Shown one piece after another: positions 1,292-12,883 of a DNA stretch of 25,430 nt (positions are counted from its first letter, which is position 1; the number at the start of each line of letters is the position of its first letter). The position numbers were made by a program, and so were the translations under genes. Source of the stretch: a virus; the IMG/VR virus record IMGVR_UViG_3300025137_000262, positions 1 through 25,430 of that record; one strand, written 5' to 3'. The notes below the pieces were generated by a model that was not told the origin of the DNA, did no database searches, and was given only the letters and a program-made list of their open reading frames with translations.

Positions 1292-1494
1292 TTGTTTCTC
1301 CTTAGTTTTTTTATATCGTAACCAAACTTTGGTTCAGTTAAACCTTTCTCTCCGTACATTTCTGCAAACTCTCGTTTGGCTATGATTGAAGTCATAGGTT
1401 TTTCTTTGTTGTTAATTCTTTCTTTGGTGTTCATACCAAACCAACTGTTGAAGTTAGCTTGGTATGACAAGTTGTTGTTGTATTCAAATTCCAT
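1288..1494 (-). CDS. Small basic hypothetical protein, 68 aa, start without Shine-Dalgarno
   Basis: A short protein, Asn/Phe/Tyr-rich at the N-terminus (EFEYNNNLSYQANFNSWFGM) with a Lys/Arg-rich end (KKLRRNK). No family recognised. The ATG lacks a purine-rich ribosome binding site. Instead the TAACCAGT motif (1511-1504) and an AT-rich run of nine bases precede it, as in front of terS and of the gene at 23623. The 23-base gap to the upstream gene holds only this motif. A later in-frame ATG (residue 20, 34) is possible but has no better signal. Confidence 0.6.
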   Translation of the reverse strand: MEFEYNNNLSYQANFNSWFGMNTKERINNKEKPMTSIIAKREFAEMYGEKGLTEPKFGYDIKKLRRNK

Positions 1495-1503
1495 AAATAT
1501 ATT

Positions 1504-1511
1504 ACTGGTTA
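1504..1511 (-). promoter_or_regulatory. TAACCAGT motif before the gene at 1494
   Basis: On the minus strand the sequence reads ATAACCAGTAATATATTT and then ATG. The same arrangement, motif then 9-12 AT-rich bases then ATG with no Shine-Dalgarno, occurs at 13249 and 23603. It may be a promoter giving a near-leaderless message or a protein-binding site. Its role is inferred. Confidence 0.4.
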
Positions 1512-1517
1512 TATTTT

Positions 1518-1820
1518 CTAGAACGGCAGGTCGTCATCTGAAATTTCTTTCTTTTCAGGTTCAGGCTTTGGCTCAACTTTAGTTTCTTGTTTCATAGGCA
1601 AGTCCAAACGAGCATACTTATACTCATTCCCATTCTTACTAGTCCTATCCCATAGAGCGACACGTATGTCCGCTTCCTCACCATCCTTAACTCTAGTCAC
1701 CAAGTCTTTTAACAAGTCCCTATCTAAAGTTATCTTTCCAGTCCAGTCAGGTTGTTGTGCTGACTTCTTGTAGTTATTAGTGTAGATCGCTCCATCACTT
1801 TGTTTTCTATCTTCATCCAT
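1518..1820 (-). CDS. Putative single-strand DNA-binding-type protein with SSB acidic tail, 100 aa
   Basis: The C-terminus ends EISDDDLPF, almost identical to the acidic tip (DDDIPF) by which bacterial SSB recruits replication and repair partners. A Lys/Glu/Pro-rich linker (KVEPKPEPEKKE) precedes it, as in SSB. The N-terminal 70 residues (beta-rich, with WTGKITLDRD and ADIRVALWDRT) are shorter than a standard OB-fold SSB and resemble small phage proteins such as the DUF736 type. It follows the Sak gene with stop and start adjacent (1821/1820), so it is probably made with the annealing protein and exonuclease. The DNA-binding role is inferred from tail and neighbours. Confidence 0.65.
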   Translation of the reverse strand: MDEDRKQSDGAIYTNNYKKSAQQPDWTGKITLDRDLLKDLVTRVKDGEEADIRVALWDRTSKNGNEYKYARLDLPMKQETKVEPKPEPEKKEISDDDLPF

Positions 1821-2531
1821 TTATTTTTCCTCCAGTTCTTTTGATCTGCTTTTAAAGATCGCATCTAATTCATCCCTTTTATCAGGATACCTTTCGCCAA
1901 GTATGGCTATTCTTTCCATGTTGATCTTGTAAAACTCTCTCAGTTGAGAGATCGTTTCTAATTGTCTTATCAAAGCTGATTGCCCTTCGACAAAAAGTTC
2001 TCCCCACTTCTCAGAATACTTATCCTCACTTGATACTTCAGTGTCAGGAATATCAGCAACAACATCTGGTGTTATATCAACTACCTCTGCTTTCTTTTTT
2101 ACTGGCTCTTTCTTAACTGAAGCTTTGTCCTTTTTCTCATCAGGTAAATCATCTGAGATACCCATGTATAACTTAATGCCTAGTCCAAACATAGCTATTG
2201 CTTTTACGAAGCACCTCATACGTGCATCATTTGTTTGTCTAGTATCAGGATTAATAACTGCCTTCATCTTGTAATCCATGACTGGCAAAATAGCCATCCT
2301 TGAACACTCGCCTATGCTTATCGTACATCCCACTTCATAGGTATCATCCTCATTCTTTACTAGATTAGAGAAGCTATATGTAGCTTGAGGGTACGTTGAT
2401 TGAAGCAAGTACCATGCTCTGCTCCAACTAAGATAAGAGAGATTCATTTTCTCTTCGACATATTCAGAGACATCTACCTCACTAAGGGTACTCCATATCT
2501 CTGCGTAGTCTGGTTCTTTTTTATTGGTCAT
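1821..2531 (-). CDS. Sak-family single-strand annealing protein (DUF1071)
   Basis: Residues 14-125 carry the DUF1071/SSAP_Sak signature: VSEYVEEKMNLSYLSWSRAW, then ILPVMDYKMKAV, then ARMRCFVKAIAMFGLGIKLY. Sak proteins are RAD52-like phage recombinases that anneal complementary strands after a 5'-3' exonuclease has resected the ends. The C-terminal half is Lys/Glu-rich and less conserved. The start is ATG at 2531, preceded by AAGGAG; a longer frame upstream would only run inside the exonuclease gene. It overlaps the exonuclease stop by 11 bp, tying the two parts of a two-component recombination system together. 236 aa. Confidence 0.85.
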   Translation of the reverse strand: MTNKKEPDYAEIWSTLSEVDVSEYVEEKMNLSYLSWSRAWYLLQSTYPQATYSFSNLVKNEDDTYEVGCTISIGECSRMAILPVMDYKMKAVINPDTRQTNDARMRCFVKAIAMFGLGIKLYMGISDDLPDEKKDKASVKKEPVKKKAEVVDITPDVVADIPDTEVSSEDKYSEKWGELFVEGQSALIRQLETISQLREFYKINMERIAILGERYPDKRDELDAIFKSRSKELEEK

Positions 2532-3420
2532 TTCCAATCTCCTTTTTGTATTGATCACAGAAAGCTGAGACATCACAATAGTCCTTGCACTTACGACTCT
2601 CGCCTTTTGCAAACTCTATTGTCAAACCTTTGTTGTCTGTGGTCTTGTTAATATAATCCTCTGCTTCTTTCTCTGTCGCTAATACCCTTAAGGCTCTAAC
2701 CCTTTTAGGTTTAATGACTCGGTAAGAATCAGGTTGCTTCCATCGTTCCTCATCTGTACACAAAGGAAGATCACTTGATATTAAGTAATCCCCCTCTGCT
2801 TCTTGGTGGAGGTTAACTCTTTCATAGATGAAATCTTTTTGCTCTTGCTCTGTCCACATCTTGATAGGTATGACAGAGATATTTGAATCAGGATAATCTG
2901 CACCTGAGTTTTGCTTTTGTCTAAGAGACCAGTCTCTATTGACTGTAATAATCTCTAGCTTTTTTAATTCTTCTTTTCTGTTTTGTTTGAATAGCCAAGC
3001 GTAAATATTTAATTGTTGCTCCCATTCTATTTTGCCTTCTGACTTAGCTCTCATTACTGTCCATGCTGAAGTTACTTTTAAATCTCTCAAGGTCTTATCT
3101 CTAATAGACATCGAATCAAACTGACCACTGATTGTCCATCCGTTTACTTGAGCGTACATTCTTTCTTCACCTATGATATCTTCTTGACCTTCGTTAGCTT
3201 TCTCCATTACATAGTGAGTAGCTGTGCCTAGAAGTTTCCATATCTGATCAGACACATCAACAACAATCTTGTCATCAAACTCATTAGCTAAGACTCTCTG
3301 TCTGGGTGACTGAATTAATCCTGTCGTGCTGATTGTAGACTTACCTTTGGAATAAGAATCGGATTGAACAGATCGAACAATCTCTTGCGGTAGATTTTTT
3401 GTATTAGTTAACTTAGCCAT
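2521..3420 (-). CDS. PD-(D/E)XK exonuclease, RecB/Cas4-like, with four-cysteine (probable Fe-S) set
   Basis: 299 aa. Motifs in order: GTATHYVME (H69), GQFD (D102), LRDLK (D113, K115; the D...DxK metal core), and QQLNIYAW (about 135-142). Four cysteines follow: C221 in LPLCTDEERW and a C-terminal set C278-x3-C282-x5-C288. This matches PDDEXK_1 nucleases in which four cysteines hold a [4Fe-4S] cluster that clamps the fold, as in AddB and Cas4. It is expected to resect DNA ends for the Sak protein encoded immediately downstream. The ATG at 3420 has only a weak ribosome site. A parS-like palindrome lies 15 bp upstream. The fold is strong; cluster and polarity are inferred. Confidence 0.85.
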   Translation of the reverse strand: MAKLTNTKNLPQEIVRSVQSDSYSKGKSTISTTGLIQSPRQRVLANEFDDKIVVDVSDQIWKLLGTATHYVMEKANEGQEDIIGEERMYAQVNGWTISGQFDSMSIRDKTLRDLKVTSAWTVMRAKSEGKIEWEQQLNIYAWLFKQNRKEELKKLEIITVNRDWSLRQKQNSGADYPDSNISVIPIKMWTEQEQKDFIYERVNLHQEAEGDYLISSDLPLCTDEERWKQPDSYRVIKPKRVRALRVLATEKEAEDYINKTTDNKGLTIEFAKGESRKCKDYCDVSAFCDQYKKEIGNDQ

Positions 3421-3434
3421 TTCCAGTTTAGTTT

Positions 3435-3450
3435 TGTTTCACATGAAACA
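3435..3450. promoter_or_regulatory. parS-like palindrome (ParB/Spo0J site)
   Basis: TGTTTCACATGAAACA is a 7-bp inverted repeat with a 2-bp centre and differs at one base from the chromosomal parS consensus TGTTTCACGTGAAACA. It lies in the 45-bp gap between two minus-strand genes, just upstream of the exonuclease. It could bind host ParB, or it could be the operator of an unrelated regulator. The identity rests on sequence match only. Confidence 0.55.
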
Positions 3451-3465
3451 TTTAGTTAAAAGTAG

Positions 3466-3714
3466 TTACTCAGTTCTCCAAATGCCAACACCTTCATCCA
3501 TCTTCACAACTTTAAACTGTGTGTCCAGTCTTCTAGCTTTGAATCTAGTGATAGAGTTTCTTATTATCTTAATCTCTTTGTCGATTTTTTTCTTAGGCAA
3601 ATCAATCTGTATAAAATCCCCAACGACCATAGCATCTAAAGGTAAATCATACTTAATAGGTTTACCTCTAAGCGGTTTAGGTATTGGTATGTTCTTTTGA
3701 ATTGTGTAATCCAT
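3466..3714 (-). CDS. Small conserved-type phage protein, 82 aa
   Basis: A basic protein with the pattern IPIPKPLRGKP, then LPLDAMVVGDFIQIDL, then a Lys/Arg/Ile-rich helix, then FKVVKMDEGVGIWRTE. It resembles a class of small phage proteins with a 'P-x2-M-x-VGD-F...WR' layout (I think of DUF7303, not certain). It may bind nucleic acid, but this is a guess from charge. It is the first gene of the leftward group, only about 14 bases from the predicted transcription start, with no clear ribosome binding site. An 88-aa plus-strand frame through it is a shadow. Confidence 0.7.
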   Translation of the reverse strand: MDYTIQKNIPIPKPLRGKPIKYDLPLDAMVVGDFIQIDLPKKKIDKEIKIIRNSITRFKARRLDTQFKVVKMDEGVGIWRTE

Positions 3715-7309: not shown

Positions 7310-7346
7310 AAAAAAAAAGGCAGTACCTACCGAAGTAGATACTGCC
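7310..7346 (-). terminator. Strong Rho-independent terminator at the end of the small-gene chain
   Basis: Minus-strand hairpin GGCAGTATCTAC-TTCG-GTAGGTACTGCC (7346-7319): a 12-bp stem with one U-G pair and a UUCG tetraloop, followed by nine Ts (7318-7310). It lies 18 bp after the stop of the gene at 7365. Confidence 0.9.
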
Positions 7347-7364
7347 TTTAATTTATTTTCCTCC

Positions 7365-7938: not shown

Positions 7939-8207
7939 GCTTCCTCCTCTCCGTCTTCTATGTTTATTATCTTGCTTCTTAGATGTGCATGTTCGCAAGT
8001 CCCATAACTTGTATGTTCAGCAACATCATCCATTATTAAATGAACAGTTTTATCTTCTAAAACAAAATGATTGTAACTGGTTAAAAAATAACCTGATCCT
8101 TCATCAAATACTTTGATCTCAATAGTTATATTGTAATCATCAGATATATTTATTACTTCATCATCAGATATATTTTCATCATCAAATATATTTATTCCTT
8201 TAATCAT
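7935..8207 (-). CDS. Acidic hypothetical protein, 90 aa
   Basis: Very acidic, with a repeated N-terminal motif (NISDDEVINISDDYN) that at DNA level is an AT-rich run of tandem-like units around 8140-8190. The middle may be beta-rich (ITIEIKVFDEGSGYFLTSYNHFVL). No known family. It overlaps the DUF2958-like gene by four bases upstream and the next gene by four bases downstream, so it belongs to a tightly coupled chain. A TAACCAGT copy lies inside it (8083-8076). Confidence 0.65.
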   Translation of the reverse strand: MIKGINIFDDENISDDEVINISDDYNITIEIKVFDEGSGYFLTSYNHFVLEDKTVHLIMDDVAEHTSYGTCEHAHLRSKIINIEDGEEEA

Positions 8208-8521
8208 GCAACTATCCTCCCTTCTTCTCTAGCTAAGTCAGAATATTCTTCGATAGACATTTCTGGCTCAAAGCTTGAGTCTCTTTCAATCGACATACCG
8301 AAAGGTAAAGTCAATGACTTCAACTCATTAAGACTGACATACCCCAACTCAGGATACCCCATACCAAGATCACAGAGACCGAACATAAGATCACCTTGAA
8401 TCATAGTGATCAACCAAGTACCCGACCCAGTCGGATTGAATAATTTTAGATAAGGTTTATCCGTACCTTCGCCTTTATTTTTAGATAGTTTTTTCTCTAT
8501 CTGTTGTGTAATTAATTTCAT
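8204..8521 (-). CDS. DUF2958-like protein, 105 aa
   Basis: MKLITQQIEKKL..., then LKLFNPTGSGTWLITMIQGDLMFGLCDLG, then ELGYVSLNELKSLTLPFGMSIERDSSFEP is the DUF2958 pattern (mobile elements and plasmids, function unknown). The ATG at 8521 has GGAGGT five bases before it. The frame extends further upstream to 8578, but that part lies in the ribozyme element and is rejected as coding. It heads the chain of small genes down to 7365, and its leader carries hammerhead-like element D. Confidence 0.75.
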   Translation of the reverse strand: MKLITQQIEKKLSKNKGEGTDKPYLKLFNPTGSGTWLITMIQGDLMFGLCDLGMGYPELGYVSLNELKSLTLPFGMSIERDSSFEPEMSIEEYSDLAREEGRIVA

Positions 8522-8552: not shown

Positions 8553-8635
8553 AACCGATTTCGATTCTTTTGAATCACCCCCGAAAGGGTACGCTCTCGC
8601 GTTCATCAGGCAAAACACACATTTTGCTATCGGTT
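8553..8635 (-). ncRNA. Hammerhead-like ribozyme element D (type III, expanded)
   Basis: Minus strand 8635 to 8553. Stem III AACCGAU/AUCGGUU (7 bp); cleavage site after A at 8628 (UA); stem I GCAAAA-UGUGUG-UUUUGC (8627-8610); core CUGAUGA (8609-8603); then three hairpins with no spare base: ACGC-GAGA-GCGU (8602-8591), ACCCU-UUCG-GGGGU (8590-8577) and GAUUC-AAAA-GAAUC (8576-8563); then GAAA (8562-8559). All conserved hammerhead bases are present, including A15.1-U16.1 and a G-C pair closing stem II. The first two hairpins are extra. It precedes the DUF2958-like gene by 31 bases. Confidence 0.75.
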
Positions 8636-8676
8636 TGCACGAATTCGACCTCCATACATCGCTTATAAGAGCAAAA

Positions 8677-8724
8677 CTAAGAGCAAGTGATACTCAGATA
8701 CCTCCGAATATCACTCGATCTTAG
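8677..8724 (-). other. Hairpin between VWA gene stop and ribozyme D
   Basis: CTAAGA-(2)-GAGTGATA / TATCACTT-(2)-TCTTAG, a 14-bp stem with one 2x2 internal loop and a 16-base loop, begins 12 bp after the VWA stop. Downstream is TTTTGCTCTT, only a weak U-tract, so this is more a 3'-end shield than a clean terminator. Confidence 0.6.
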
Positions 8725-8736
8725 AGTCGCTTTGGT

Positions 8737-10206
8737 TTACTTGTTCATGTAAACAACCTTTCCAAAGGGAAGGGATTCAGAGTACGAAGACTCTTCAGAA
8801 CATATCCACAAGACTGGAACGTCAGGCTCAACCTCTGGGTTAACCTCTCCCCACCCGTCAGTGAAAACAATGATTGCATCGTAGTCATCTTTGTCCTCTA
8901 ACTTCTGGTGAAAGGCATTGAAGGGGGGAGTAAACTCAGTCCCACCATTACCCGCACTGGGGAACTCATCCTTGTCAGGAAGATCATCACCCTGAGTAGT
9001 ATCCCAAGTCTCCCAGTATTCGCCATTAGCATTACGTAACGCTATGCTAGCGAATCGATTGACTGAAAGCATTTCTACTTCGTACTGCTCGAACAAGTCC
9101 ATGGCATTAGTGACATAGTCATCTCTCTCATGGGCAGTAGACCCAGACACGTCAATCATCATCGCTACCTTTTTGATAGAAGGCTCGTTCTTCTTAGAAG
9201 GAAGATTGATACCTCGATGTTGATGTCTTCGATTGAGTCGAGACCATGAGTTAGAGTCAGATTTAGTCGATGAAAGAAAGTCCGCCATTTCATCCTCCCA
9301 ACTCACAGAGACCTGAGTTATCTCAGCAGTCCTGCCACCAAGATAATCTGTACCCTCGCCACTGCCAATAGCTTTCTCTAGTTTTTGAGCAACCATTATT
9401 TGAGCATCCAGAACAGTCATCTGTTCCTTAACCTCATCCTCAGACAAAGGTTTCCCCTCATCAGTAGTAGCGGGCATAATTGCACCCGCATTCACTGGAA
9501 GATCATCTAGATTAACTTTGCCACTCTGACTCTTGCCACCAGTAGCATCTTGTGGGTTTGGTCTAACGTCACCAGACTCAGAAGAAGACCCTTGACCAGT
9601 AATATTTTCTTCATCACCGCTGTTTTCATCTTCTCCTTCGCCTTCGCCTTCACCCTCGCCCTCGCCCTCGCCTTCGCCCTGACCAGACTCACTGTCGGAA
9701 TTGTCACCAGACTCACCGCTAGATTTATCGATCATATCCTGAAGGGATTCATCATCATCCATTAGATTAGCGTATATTTTTTCAGCACTATCCGTACCAA
9801 ATTTGTCATCCCATATCCCGCCTTCGGGTAGAGGTAAACGCAGAACATAATGTATGTAATTGTTAATCGCATAGTCAGTGGCAATATTCCAAAGCTTTGC
9901 ATTTCGTCTGCCCATTCTGAAATGATGACCCCAAACACAATGCAAGACTTCGTGAATAATTACCGCCTTGATCTTATCCATTGGAAGAGACAAGACAAAG
10001 CCACTATTAAATATAATGACCTTGCCGTCTGTTGCCATGGTGTCGAAAGAATTATCTTCGATCAACTCCAACTGTAAAAGCATCCCCGCAATACCAACCG
10101 AAGATTCGATTAGCTGAGACTTTGCCTTAGACATAACATCCTTCGCAGAATATTTTGGATTATGAAACAACGTCTGACCCTGTAAGTTACCTTTGTATGT
10201 ACTCAC
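8737..10206 (-). CDS. VWA-domain protein with N-terminal zinc-peptidase motif (DUF2201/CobT-like)
   Basis: 489 aa. N-terminal DUF2201-type metallopeptidase-like domain with HEVLH-x3-GHH (85-95); an acidic low-complexity linker with an eightfold Gly-Glu repeat (about 177-192); a C-terminal von Willebrand A domain with MIDAS elements DVSGS (352-356), GGTEF (T423) and FTDG (D450). Such proteins pair with MoxR/CobS AAA+ ATPases to remodel targets or insert metals. The ATPase and a linker gene lie just upstream. Start is GTG at 10206 with GGAGGTGACAA before it, overlapping the upstream TGA by four bases. The phage target is unknown. Confidence 0.88.
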   Translation of the reverse strand: MSTYKGNLQGQTLFHNPKYSAKDVMSKAKSQLIESSVGIAGMLLQLELIEDNSFDTMATDGKVIIFNSGFVLSLPMDKIKAVIIHEVLHCVWGHHFRMGRRNAKLWNIATDYAINNYIHYVLRLPLPEGGIWDDKFGTDSAEKIYANLMDDDESLQDMIDKSSGESGDNSDSESGQGEGEGEGEGEGEGEGEDENSGDEENITGQGSSSESGDVRPNPQDATGGKSQSGKVNLDDLPVNAGAIMPATTDEGKPLSEDEVKEQMTVLDAQIMVAQKLEKAIGSGEGTDYLGGRTAEITQVSVSWEDEMADFLSSTKSDSNSWSRLNRRHQHRGINLPSKKNEPSIKKVAMMIDVSGSTAHERDDYVTNAMDLFEQYEVEMLSVNRFASIALRNANGEYWETWDTTQGDDLPDKDEFPSAGNGGTEFTPPFNAFHQKLEDKDDYDAIIVFTDGWGEVNPEVEPDVPVLWICSEESSYSESLPFGKVVYMNK

Positions 10207-11153
10207 TTGTCACCTCCATTTCCGAAGACATTGGAAAGTAAATTCTTGTTGAGCGAACTCTTTGAAGACTCCGCTTCTTCTAGAACTTTCTTTCTTTTGC
10301 TTTCACCTAACTCAGTCTTATCTCTAAGAGAATCAACTGAATTAATGCCCGCTAAAAGGGCATCAATATCTTGAATAGACTCAGCCAATTCTTCTGATTG
10401 GTAAACGTCATCATTCAAAACTCTAGCCCTGTCATTATCTTCTCTAAGTTTATCGAACATAGCATCCTTGAAAAATTTCCCGCCCTTATCTTTTGGCTTG
10501 TAGTTTTTCATGGCATCTATAACCCTAGTCAAAGACTCCTCAAGATTTGCCTTTGCATCATCTAAAAGAACTTTCTCGTTGTGACGATACTGCCCCTCTA
10601 ATTGTTTCTTGATTAGCTCTTTTTGCTTTGCACTTGCAGTGACACGAATATCACCGCTGTTATTAGGGAGCGGTCTTATGTTGACCTCAAAAACAAATTT
10701 GTTTCTGATCTCCCAAGGCTCAAGATAGTCAGACTCTTTGTAAGCTTTGCCGAGTAAACTTTTTGATTCCTCGACAATAGTTTCATACTGACCCATAAAC
10801 CATTCGACTTCTCTGTCCCATTGAACTTGAAAATCGTTGATTGACTGCTGAACAGTCTCAAAGTGTTTATTGGGTAGCAAGTAATAAACTGACTTACTAT
10901 TATGTCCGTCACTCCAAGGATATACGTAAGGTCTTACGTGAGCATTAAAGAACGTGTTGTACATGCTCCTCATATGCTTATTGATATCAAAAGAATAAAT
11001 CTTTTTGTCTACCTTGATATGCTCCCTGTACGAATCGTATTGATTAGCAACATCAGAACTGATCATGCGATCAACCTTGATACCGCTAGGCATAGATTTG
11101 TGTACGTGAATTAAAGTCGCAATTTCTTGCAACACCGATTGTTTGTTATCCAT
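10203..11153 (-). CDS. Unknown 316-aa protein between the MoxR and VWA genes
   Basis: Start at ATG 11153, seven bases after GGAGGT; a frame from 11165 would include the ribosome site. The protein is mostly helical, charged, with a Trp/Tyr-rich middle (VYPWSDGHNSKSVYYLLPNKHF, WDREVEWFMGQYE) and a long Lys/Glu C-terminal part that may form coiled coil (about 190-290). No catalytic motif is seen. Its fixed place between the ATPase and the VWA gene, with a 4-bp overlap to the latter, suggests an adaptor or substrate of that pair. This is inference. Confidence 0.75.
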   Translation of the reverse strand: MDNKQSVLQEIATLIHVHKSMPSGIKVDRMISSDVANQYDSYREHIKVDKKIYSFDINKHMRSMYNTFFNAHVRPYVYPWSDGHNSKSVYYLLPNKHFETVQQSINDFQVQWDREVEWFMGQYETIVEESKSLLGKAYKESDYLEPWEIRNKFVFEVNIRPLPNNSGDIRVTASAKQKELIKKQLEGQYRHNEKVLLDDAKANLEESLTRVIDAMKNYKPKDKGGKFFKDAMFDKLREDNDRARVLNDDVYQSEELAESIQDIDALLAGINSVDSLRDKTELGESKRKKVLEEAESSKSSLNKNLLSNVFGNGGDK

Positions 11154-11182
11154 AGTTACCTCCATAGATAGTTAAAAGTTAA

Positions 11183-11240
11183 AAACTGATTTCATACTTT
11201 TGTAATCATTCAGACCGAGTACACACTCGATTATCAGTTT
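11183..11240 (-). ncRNA. Hammerhead-like element C (type III, damaged core)
   Basis: Minus strand 11240 to 11183. Stem III AAACUGAU/AUCAGUUU (8 bp, the longest of the four); cleavage site after A at 11232; stem I AUCGAG-UGUGUA-CUCGGU (11231-11214); then CUGAAUGA in place of CUGAUGA (one extra A); a short stem II UAC-AAAA-GUA flanked by a U-U mismatch; then GAAA. The frame of the element is kept but the core insertion would be expected to slow or stop cleavage. It precedes the 316-aa gene. Confidence 0.65.
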
Positions 11241-11248
11241 TAGGTGAA

Positions 11249-11286
11249 GGGCAAAGAATATATTTCCAGTCATATATTCTCCGCCC
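11249..11286 (-). other. 15-bp hairpin between MoxR-like gene stop and ribozyme C
   Basis: Minus strand GGGCGGAGAATATAT / ATATATTCTTTGCCC, all 15 positions paired if two G-U pairs are allowed, with an 8-base loop. It starts 15 bp after the stop codon and ends 8 bp before element C. There is no U-tract. The loop region holds an ATG with GGAG in front (see findings). Confidence 0.65.
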
Positions 11287-11300
11287 AACTCCATTAATTG

Positions 11301-12377
11301 TTAGATCAGCAAGTCTTGGTGATCAACAATAAAGTCGGAATAAGTCGAAGTCTCTTTCAACTCTGGATTCATTCCAACCATTGTGCGAATAAAAAATATT
11401 GCAAACTCATCAGTCTGAAACGTCTTGATAAATTCAAGAGCGTTACCAAAATGTATAGCAACATCTTTATCGCTTGACTCTTTCAGGGCAGAAGTCAGGG
11501 CAACCGCTGTCGCGTATTGCAGACCAACACCTTCGGGAGTATCTACTTTCTTTCCGTCTAAAACCTTTTGCAGATTAGGAACATCCTGCATCAAGGTAAT
11601 AAATGCCATGAACTCAGCGGTGAACTCACGACCCACAAAACCATAGATCAGATTCTGCATAATATCCTTATCAGGATTCTGTGCTAAAACCTTGCTCAGA
11701 TTTGTGACTGTTCGAGGAGTCGCGGAAGGCTCAACAATTTTGGGGTCAAAATTATTTAGCAACTGGGGCTGATACTGAATGAAAGCTGTAAGTCTTTCAT
11801 CAACACCATTTTCACTAGCCCACTTCAACCAGTCCTGAGTATTAGACTCAAACTCGATGACACCAACTCGACCCATACCATGAGCAACAATTTTATTTGC
11901 TGACGATCTGTCGCTGTGTCGGTTACCCGCTAGCACTACACTCCAACCTTCGGGAAAGACGTATTCACCCAGTCTTCGCTCCTTGATCAACTGAGAAGCG
12001 ATTGCTTGAAGGTCTTGACCCGCCTGTGCAAACTCATCTAAGAACAGCAGACCCTTGCCTGAAGTCGGTAGATTTCCGAGCATCGCTCTCTTCTGAACTC
12101 CGTCCAGAATATAAGGCAGACCACCAAAGTCTACTGTCTCAAAGTGACTCAGTCTAAAATCAACCAGACCGAACTCCTTTGAATTCGGAGTCGAGTTATC
12201 CCAACTGACTGAAAGACCTTCCTCTTCAGCAAGGCTTTCCGCAAATTGATAAATCGTCTCAGATTTACCAACACCCACTGACCCCAACACCAAAGGTGTT
12301 TGATCAGCATTTTTCATAACGTGCATCATCTTGAGCGTTTGACTCGGTGATGACCCATTTATATTTTTTTCATTCAT
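11301..12377 (-). CDS. MoxR/CobS-like AAA+ ATPase
   Basis: 358 aa. Walker A GSVGVGKS (32-39), Walker B LLFLDE (110-115), sensor 1 VLAGNR (148-153), and the MoxR-type helix insert feature 'VDFGGLPY' (82-89) before Walker B. MoxR/CobS ATPases form hexameric rings that act with a VWA protein, here encoded two genes on, as in RavA-ViaA or the cobaltochelatase CobS-CobT. Phages of marine bacteria often carry cobS/cobT-like genes, but the target is not known. ATG at 12377 follows GTGGAGG. The leader carries ribozyme element B. Confidence 0.9.
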   Translation of the reverse strand: MNEKNINGSSPSQTLKMMHVMKNADQTPLVLGSVGVGKSETIYQFAESLAEEEGLSVSWDNSTPNSKEFGLVDFRLSHFETVDFGGLPYILDGVQKRAMLGNLPTSGKGLLFLDEFAQAGQDLQAIASQLIKERRLGEYVFPEGWSVVLAGNRHSDRSSANKIVAHGMGRVGVIEFESNTQDWLKWASENGVDERLTAFIQYQPQLLNNFDPKIVEPSATPRTVTNLSKVLAQNPDKDIMQNLIYGFVGREFTAEFMAFITLMQDVPNLQKVLDGKKVDTPEGVGLQYATAVALTSALKESSDKDVAIHFGNALEFIKTFQTDEFAIFFIRTMVGMNPELKETSTYSDFIVDHQDLLI

Positions 12378-12412
12378 TGTTTTACCTCCACAATAAAATA
12401 AAAGTTTTAGTT

Positions 12413-12499
12413 AACTGTTTCGGAACTTTTGTTCCCGAAGCATAAATGAATGCTTCGCCCTTTCGGGTCATCAGAGCAAGTACACACTCGCTGACAGTT
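12413..12499 (-). ncRNA. Hammerhead-like ribozyme element B (type III, expanded)
   Basis: Minus strand 12499 to 12413. Stem III AACUGU/ACAGUU (6 bp); cleavage site after C at 12493 (GUC); stem I AGCGAG-UGUGUA-CUUGCU (12492-12475, one G-U); CUGAUGA (12474-12468); three abutting hairpins: CCC-GAAA-GGG (12467-12458), CGAAGCAU-UCAUUU-AUGCUUCG (12457-12436) and GGAAC-AAAA-GUUCC (12435-12422); then GAAA (12421-12418). Every conserved hammerhead base is present. It lies 36 bases before the MoxR-like start codon. Confidence 0.75.
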
Positions 12500-12505
12500 T
12501 TTGCG

Positions 12506-12528
12506 GGGGGTAGCTCATAACCACCCCC
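12506..12528 (-). other. GC-rich hairpin after the 86-aa gene, before ribozyme B
   Basis: Minus strand GGGGGTGG / CTACCCCC with a 7-base loop (TTATGAG), beginning 7 bp after the stop codon and ending 6 bp before element B. No U-tract follows, so it fits a 3'-end protecting hairpin better than a terminator. Confidence 0.6.
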
Positions 12529-12535
12529 GACAAAT

Positions 12536-12796
12536 TTATAAACTATCACCCTCCTCTAAGTGATATTTTGTGATTGCTTCTCTACGATCTTTTAACGCAT
12601 TGAGAAAATATTCAGTTTCCCAGATTTCATCAACCCAAGCTTTTGCTTCTCTCTTTGTTTTGAAAGTCCCGACAAAGTCAAAGTCATCCAAAGACTGACT
12701 TCCCGCAATCCACCCATAACTATTTTGACTGAAAATATTAAAGTCTCTATAGATGTATTCTCCTGCACGCATTTTTCTTGCTGTATATTTTTTCAT
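12536..12796 (-). CDS. Hypothetical protein, 86 aa
   Basis: Mixed protein with a basic N-terminus (MKKYTARKMRAGEYIYRDF), a Ser/Asp-rich middle and a C-terminal helix (TKREAKAWVDEIWETEYFLNAL); the 'F-x-T-K-R-E-A-K-A-W-V' pattern is common in small phage proteins of unknown role. ATG at 12796 follows GGTAGGAG. It is the first gene of the MoxR/VWA cluster and carries ribozyme element A in its leader. Confidence 0.7.
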   Translation of the reverse strand: MKKYTARKMRAGEYIYRDFNIFSQNSYGWIAGSQSLDDFDFVGTFKTKREAKAWVDEIWETEYFLNALKDRREAITKYHLEEGDSL

Positions 12797-12829
12797 TTTT
12801 TCTCCTACCTTTCGGTATTGTTAAAAGTT

Positions 12830-12883
12830 ACTGTTTCGATTCTTTTGAATCATCATCAGAGCAAGCACACACTTGCTGACAGT
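12830..12883 (-). ncRNA. Hammerhead-like ribozyme element A (type III, compact)
   Basis: Minus strand 12883 to 12830, 54 nt. Stem III ACUGU/ACAGU; cleavage site after C at 12878 (GUC); stem I AGCAAG-UGUGUG-CUUGCU (12877-12860); CUGAUGA (12859-12853); one extra U; stem II GAUUC-AAAA-GAAUC (12851-12838); GAAA (12837-12834). This is the closest of the four to the textbook fold. It precedes the 86-aa gene by 33 bases. A small hairpin (CUCAC-AAUA-GUGGG) lies just upstream. Confidence 0.8.

Follow-up and report, generated by a model that had tools for sequence, protein, structure and literature searches.

Serial type III hammerheads in the leaders of a phage gene cluster, and a core variant carrying two inserted hairpins

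The stretch of DNA analysed here (the window) comprises positions 1 to 25,430 of the virus record IMGVR_UViG_3300025137_000262, a total of 25,430 nucleotides (nt), and carries four RNA elements, A to D, in the leaders of one gene cluster. These elements are members of a genuine type III hammerhead family resembling the ribozyme of sTRSV. Their identity, covariation and positions, and the pairs of hairpins inserted into two of them, were computed; we infer that these predicted ribozymes cleave, and that the four of them probably divide a single long phage transcript into mRNAs whose 5' ends are structured, with an effect on the stability of the processed RNAs.

The four elements and their relatives

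Element A (12830..12883), element B (12413..12499), element C (11183..11240) and element D (8553..8635) all lie on the minus strand, and the window sequence agrees with the positions and strand given for them in an earlier note on this DNA. The order of the strands fits type III: the 5' strand of stem III, H17, stem I, CUGANGA, stem II, GAAA and the 3' strand of stem III, with the end of stem III open. This plan of stems I, II and III is the minimum-energy fold of A, B, C and D when each is folded alone (z-scores against shuffled sequences of -1.6, -5.1, -2.4 and -3.1, respectively). We built a covariance model, R1, on A and 45 relatives (46 compact elements, with an identical copy of A in record L001 as a training member); B, C and D were outside the training set. 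The scan of the window with R1 gave exactly four matches, which were A (77.4 bits, E = 5e-21), C (44.0 bits, E = 5.6e-11), D (40.5 bits, E = 6.6e-10) and B (39.2 bits, E = 1.6e-9). The cuts are predicted 3' of 12878 (C17 of A), 12493 (C17 of B), 11232 (A17 of C) and 8628 (A17 of D), and the sites proposed in the earlier note correspond to model position 17 in the R1 alignment in all four elements.

The CUGANGA and GAAA core is intact in A, B and D, and A has a single extra U between A9 and G10.1. Element C departs from this core by one insertion: in its CUGAAUGA sequence, A6 is followed by an additional A (an insertion of the A6a type), and U.U closes its stem II (10.1/11.1). Since the same variant core recurs in relatives (L073, L055, L012, L017, L014 and L102), it is not an assembly error. 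The site of element C is also filled in relatives, and the element there in L002 (7135-7195) has a CUGAUGA core.

The relatives were found with two sequence patterns. The first fixed no more than loop I, CUGAUGA, the 3' side of stem II and GAAA; in a viral contig collection it hit 91 stretches, and its longer-gap version hit 9. About 0.1 chance matches to the first pattern are expected, according to a rough estimate by hand. The second pattern, for the subclass with U.U closing stem II, matched at least 120 stretches. Both patterns left free stem III, the 5' strand of stem I and positions 16.1 and 17. In the resulting counts, which are not independent trials as many of the elements are related to one another, stem I paired fully in 149 and stem III paired in 150 of the 152 distinct elements, U occupied position 16.1 in 151 of them, and position 17 was C, A or U and never G. 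When the partners were exchanged between elements, pairing was left in 18/152 (stem I) and 59/152 (stem III). A cleaving hammerhead requires position 17 to be other than G, and a separate descriptor permitting G17 yielded 209 distinct elements with A (123), C (73) or U (13) at this position and no G.

In the alignment of the 46 compact elements, 96.6% of the cells were paired, compared with 69% in shuffles, and the paired share fell to 33-50% when the structure was slid along the alignment. Both sides had changed in 15 of the 19 pairs, with 247 double-sided changes versus 69 in shuffles. N7 of CUGANGA was variable, as in known hammerheads, and the remaining core was mostly kept. The covariation of stems I and III described in the earlier note was thus borne out by both the 46-element alignment and the pairing of the 152 elements. 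This covariation, and the kept residues that the searches had not imposed, support the identification of the elements as hammerheads made in that note.

The base at the cleavage site was tied to the type of stem II. The U.U subclass at 10.1/11.1 (L021, L049, L055 and many of L123-L219) had 2 C and 74 A at position 17, whereas the G-C subclass had 57 C and 9 A. Within the open-access literature searched, this tie is new, and it may tune the cleavage rate. Loop I with UGUGUR is found together with a loop II of AAAA or GAAA, and a U-rich loop I occurs with an AUUAA-type loop II (L007:6133-6232, L069:2751-2850, L028:3428-3488 and L105:7328-7387); with few independent switches, this co-change hints at a coupled contact between the two loops. 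The family is apparently abundant among phages and apparently undescribed in the open-access literature searched.

Five matches came from a genome contig collection, and two of them (L098 and L099) look like chance matches. In a 62-kb record (G002:C1), two ribozymes are repeated at both ends (835, 2058, 59749 and 60978), one copy having an extra A in GAAA; this duplication is probably an assembly artefact or a terminal repeat. In L118, a Candidatus Campbellbacteria metagenome-assembled genome (G038:C4:56272-56332), a family hammerhead on a 143-kb contig adjoins an open reading frame (ORF) resembling the epsilon subunit of ATP synthase, and the family may therefore extend to the cellular chromosomes of Candidate Phyla Radiation bacteria.

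Two hairpins between A9 and G10.1

In the compact form of the family, a lone U or A separates A9 from G10.1, and a single extra nucleotide also stands at this place in the hammerhead of the viroid CChMVd. Elements B and D replace this base by two whole hairpins. On the minus strand, the insert of B (12436..12467, 32 nt) consists of CCC-GAAA-GGG followed by CGAAGCAU-UCAUUU-AUGCUUCG, and that of D (8577..8602, 26 nt) consists of ACGC-GAGA-GCGU followed by ACCCU-UUCG-GGGGU. In all 18 distinct long elements, the two hairpins abut each other, A9 and G10.1 with no unpaired base, an arrangement seen in just 1-4% of shuffled inserts. Inserts longer than 66 nt were looked for, and none was found. The insert sequences are diverse, having in common only tetraloops and a recurrent UCAUUU loop, with no conserved unpaired aptamer-like motif.

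Between relatives, the insert is present or absent at one and the same site. The ribozymes at L023:2632 and L080:9778, both before a homologue of the 316-amino-acid (aa) ORF that follows element C in the window, are identical through the core, but one U is set against the 30-nt insert; the two form a matched natural pair in which the insert is the sole difference. Similarly, B and L002:5912 share stem II, and B has 32 nt where L002:5912 has U. We read the insert-bearing elements as a variant of the family, because they have all its other sequence features and because cores are identical with and without the insert. The possibility that a mobile repeat gave rise to the inserts was rejected, as no copy with up to 4 mismatches was found outside the CUGANGA context in the fetched DNA.

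According to a 2023 survey of all known hammerhead alignments (PMC10085705), an insertion between CUGANGA and the adjacent stems never exceeds 1-2 nt. Element A, with 1 nt, stays within this limit, but B (32 nt) and D (26 nt) do not. B, D and many relatives are therefore a structural variant beyond the survey, in which the three-way junction has turned into a five-way junction, and this form breaks a stated rule of hammerhead architecture. The earlier note had the hammerhead plan right but did not flag the two-hairpin insertion in B and D, their most unusual feature.

In a further hammerhead-like set (L009, L022, L026, L072 and L094), stem II is a short GC/GC helix prolonged by a hairpin, whose UUCAUUUA-type loop resembles that of the second insert hairpin in B.

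Operon layout and proposed transcript processing

Element A is in the first leader of the gene cluster, and the other three lie between cistrons. On the minus strand, A is followed by an 86-aa ORF (12536..12796) with a sub-threshold Pfam match only, B by the gene for a MoxR-like AAA ATPase (11301..12377, phrog_1297), C by a 316-aa ORF of no recognised family (10203..11153) and D by a DUF2958 gene (8204..8521). The 316-aa ORF overlaps the gene for a DUF2201 metallopeptidase/VWA-like protein (8737..10206, identified with Pfam), and this junction has no ribozyme. Stem-loops on the same strand separate the upstream stop codons from the intercistronic ribozymes. The one between the 86-aa stop codon and B (GGGGGU...ACCCCC, 12506..12528), seen in the sequence and absent from the terminator list, is not a terminator because it has no U-run, and is a putative 3'-end protector of the upstream product. 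The GGGC...GCCC stem-loop between the MoxR stop codon and C (11249..11286; gap fold z = -7.0) is not terminator-like, and a long stem-loop lies between the DUF2201 stop codon and D (8670..8731; gap fold z = -5.5), the inner part of which matches a loose terminator scan. The sole strong intrinsic terminator in the scan (7316..7349, minus strand), with a 15-bp stem and a T-run, follows the last gene and is the probable operon end.

A similar geometry was found throughout the family. A start codon with a ribosome-binding site is downstream of 146 of the 169 elements, at a median distance of 28 nt, and the upstream stop codon is commonly 50-100 nt from the ribozyme. A stable stem-loop (z below -2) precedes 58 of 70 ribozymes versus 38 of 86 control gaps (p = 6e-7). 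In other records, which are 56-59 kb long, one strand can have as many as 4 elements in a stretch of about 5 kb. The commonest genes after the ribozymes are homologues of the 316-aa ORF (33 elements) and the MoxR ATPase (12 elements), the same sites being filled in divergent phages. With such a fixed order of stop codon, stem-loop, ribozyme, ribosome-binding site and gene in a large and coherent set, the idea of mRNA processing becomes testable with few constructs.

Because of this layout, the four elements are best read as processing the transcript of a single operon. The transcript would probably start between 13268 and 12886 and end at the terminator at 7316, and cutting after 12878, 12493, 11232 and 8628 would leave downstream fragments with lengths of 385, 1261, 2604 and about 1312 nt. 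At the start of each fragment there would be a 5'-OH and then the folded ribozyme body with stem I leading, ahead of the ribosome-binding site and the start codon; the fragments upstream of the cuts in B, C and D would terminate just past a stem-loop, in a 2',3'-cyclic phosphate. Every cistron or cistron block would thus acquire a 5' end that is defined and structured and a 3' end that is protected, which would allow independent control of its stability and translation.

Several results weigh against this reading. In folding predictions, the ribosome-binding sites are as accessible before cleavage as after it, and folding thus predicts no effect on translation; an unmasking of these sites by cleavage was rejected for this reason, and processing with an effect on stability is favoured over it. 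The predicted pairing of A, B and C drops to 0.35-0.73 in the native context, and these elements may therefore misfold. An insertion after A6 gave low activity in another hammerhead (PMC3088659), so that C, although a member of the family, may be weak or slow, and its activity is doubtful. Stem-loops are also frequent in the control gaps (44%). In scoring with Rfam, which the earlier note had proposed, nothing in the window or ten related loci matched at the gathering score, and no hammerhead was found over 5.9 kb at E up to 10; only A, scanned alone, matched RF00008 (31.3 bits, E = 1.3e-5), below the gathering cut-off of 48.5, and there was no call for B, C or D. The Rfam cut-off thus hides an apparently abundant phage ribozyme family. 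Finally, R1 found no match in eight phages sharing the terminase or MoxR gene (HTVC027P, HTVC023P, DSL-LC04, 023Pt_psg01, Pag-Yong1, pVa5, S-TIM5 and S6), indicating that the ribozymes are not essential to these genes.

The elements might instead be conditional switches, in which the inserted hairpins, and perhaps the weakened core of C, sense a protein, a ligand or a phage RNA and gate cleavage as in natural aptazymes. The location of the inserts within the catalytic core, their gain or loss at the same site between relatives and the constancy of two hairpins despite their diversity would suit such a role, as would the association of A17 with the U.U subclass and of C17 with the G-C subclass, as if activity were tuned. 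However, the inserts lack a conserved unpaired motif of the aptamer kind beyond the tetraloops and the UCAUUU loop, and access to the ribosome-binding sites is predicted to be unchanged on cleavage; we consider this explanation unlikely. It is similarly improbable that the double-hairpin insert is a regulatory sensor module which times the processing of single cistrons during infection, making the four elements a natural aptazyme set in one operon.

Two other explanations appear far less probable still. The elements could be hammerhead-shaped leaders that have lost cleavage and serve only in protein binding or mRNA stabilisation, to which the CUGAAUGA-type core insertions and the mismatched stem II base of some members might point. 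Yet the family keeps U16.1 and the unpaired residues of the core, and none of the 209 elements has G17, a base that blocks cleavage; without selection for cleavage, this would have no obvious reason. A loss of cleavage is thus very improbable. Serial cuts could also free segments for re-ligation, yielding circular or spliced RNAs, since hammerheads can ligate and Perreault et al. raised this idea for serial prophage sets (PMC3088659). These authors, however, detected no such products, and the segments in the window comprise full cistrons, each with a start codon and a ribosome-binding site of the ordinary kind, so that re-ligation is also highly unlikely.

The source of the window is probably an aquatic tailed phage of the Pelagibacter-phage kind, judging from its terminase, whose closest matches (53-58% identity) are the terminases of Pelagibacter phages HTVC027P and HTVC023P and of Phage DSL-LC04. 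No close DNA relatives were found among 50,697 phage records, and blastn with one ribozyme gave short weak matches only. In six loci (L051, L052, L062, L075, L087 and L089), the genes after the ribozymes have no recognisable ribosome-binding site, suggesting that their hosts use other start signals. The DUF2201 protein contains a stretch of repeated Glu-Gly (GEGEGEGE..., window 9620-9690), and its family is labelled HNH endonuclease by PHROGs, whereas Pfam finds metallopeptidase and VWA-like domains. Near a family hammerhead in L084, a terminase-like ORF (1397-3625) contains an apparent intein.

Comparison with known systems

The family is like the type III hammerheads of RF00008 and sTRSV in its open stem III, CUGANGA and GAAA core, A15.1-U16.1, H17 and short stem II, and loop I of the sTRSV ribozyme starts with UGUG, as does loop I of the phage family. 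It differs from them in the extra U or A, or the two hairpins, at A9/G10.1, in its AAAA loop II, in its sub-gathering Rfam score and in its location in phage mRNA leaders.

The layout fits the view of the earlier note that the elements cut up one operon, but its statement that no serial set was known does not stand. Serial prophage hammerheads, and the idea of processing, have been known since 2011, when Perreault et al. (PMC3088659) described clustered hammerheads flanking prophage genes in A. tumefaciens, C. scindens and A. caulinodans and proposed that they process long phage transcripts; the A. tumefaciens set was shown to cleave, and did so on expression in E. coli as well. Those sets resemble the present one in having multiple hammerheads per transcript with genes flanked by them, and in the mRNA processing proposed. 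However, they consist of several types and their genes are not constant, whereas the phage family consists of type III alone, keeps a fixed spacing to the start codon, recurs before the same genes (MoxR and the 316-aa ORF) and has a stem-loop ahead of most of its intercistronic members.

The synthetic insulator RiboJ, in which a hammerhead is combined with a hairpin, normalises the 5' untranslated region and raises transcript and protein levels (PMC7536230, PMC6206723). As in RiboJ, the phage hammerheads are just upstream of a ribosome-binding site (median of 28 nt to the start codon, 146/169), where cleavage would define the 5' end, and the serial cutting proposed here would be its natural counterpart. 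RiboJ is used once per gene and has an added 23-nt hairpin, whereas the phage elements are natural and occur in series; their hairpins precede the ribozyme, and B and D have further ones within the core. The family thus supplies natural parts comparable to RiboJ.

Types SGC and CSG (PMC10085705), which are natural non-circular permutations of the hammerhead, are likewise unusual hammerhead architectures from environmental sequence data, but they alter the strand order, whereas the phage family keeps the type III order and adds two helices at the junction of A9 and stem II. Within the open-access literature searched, what is apparently new is a phage hammerhead family with a fixed geometry and its double-hairpin core variant.

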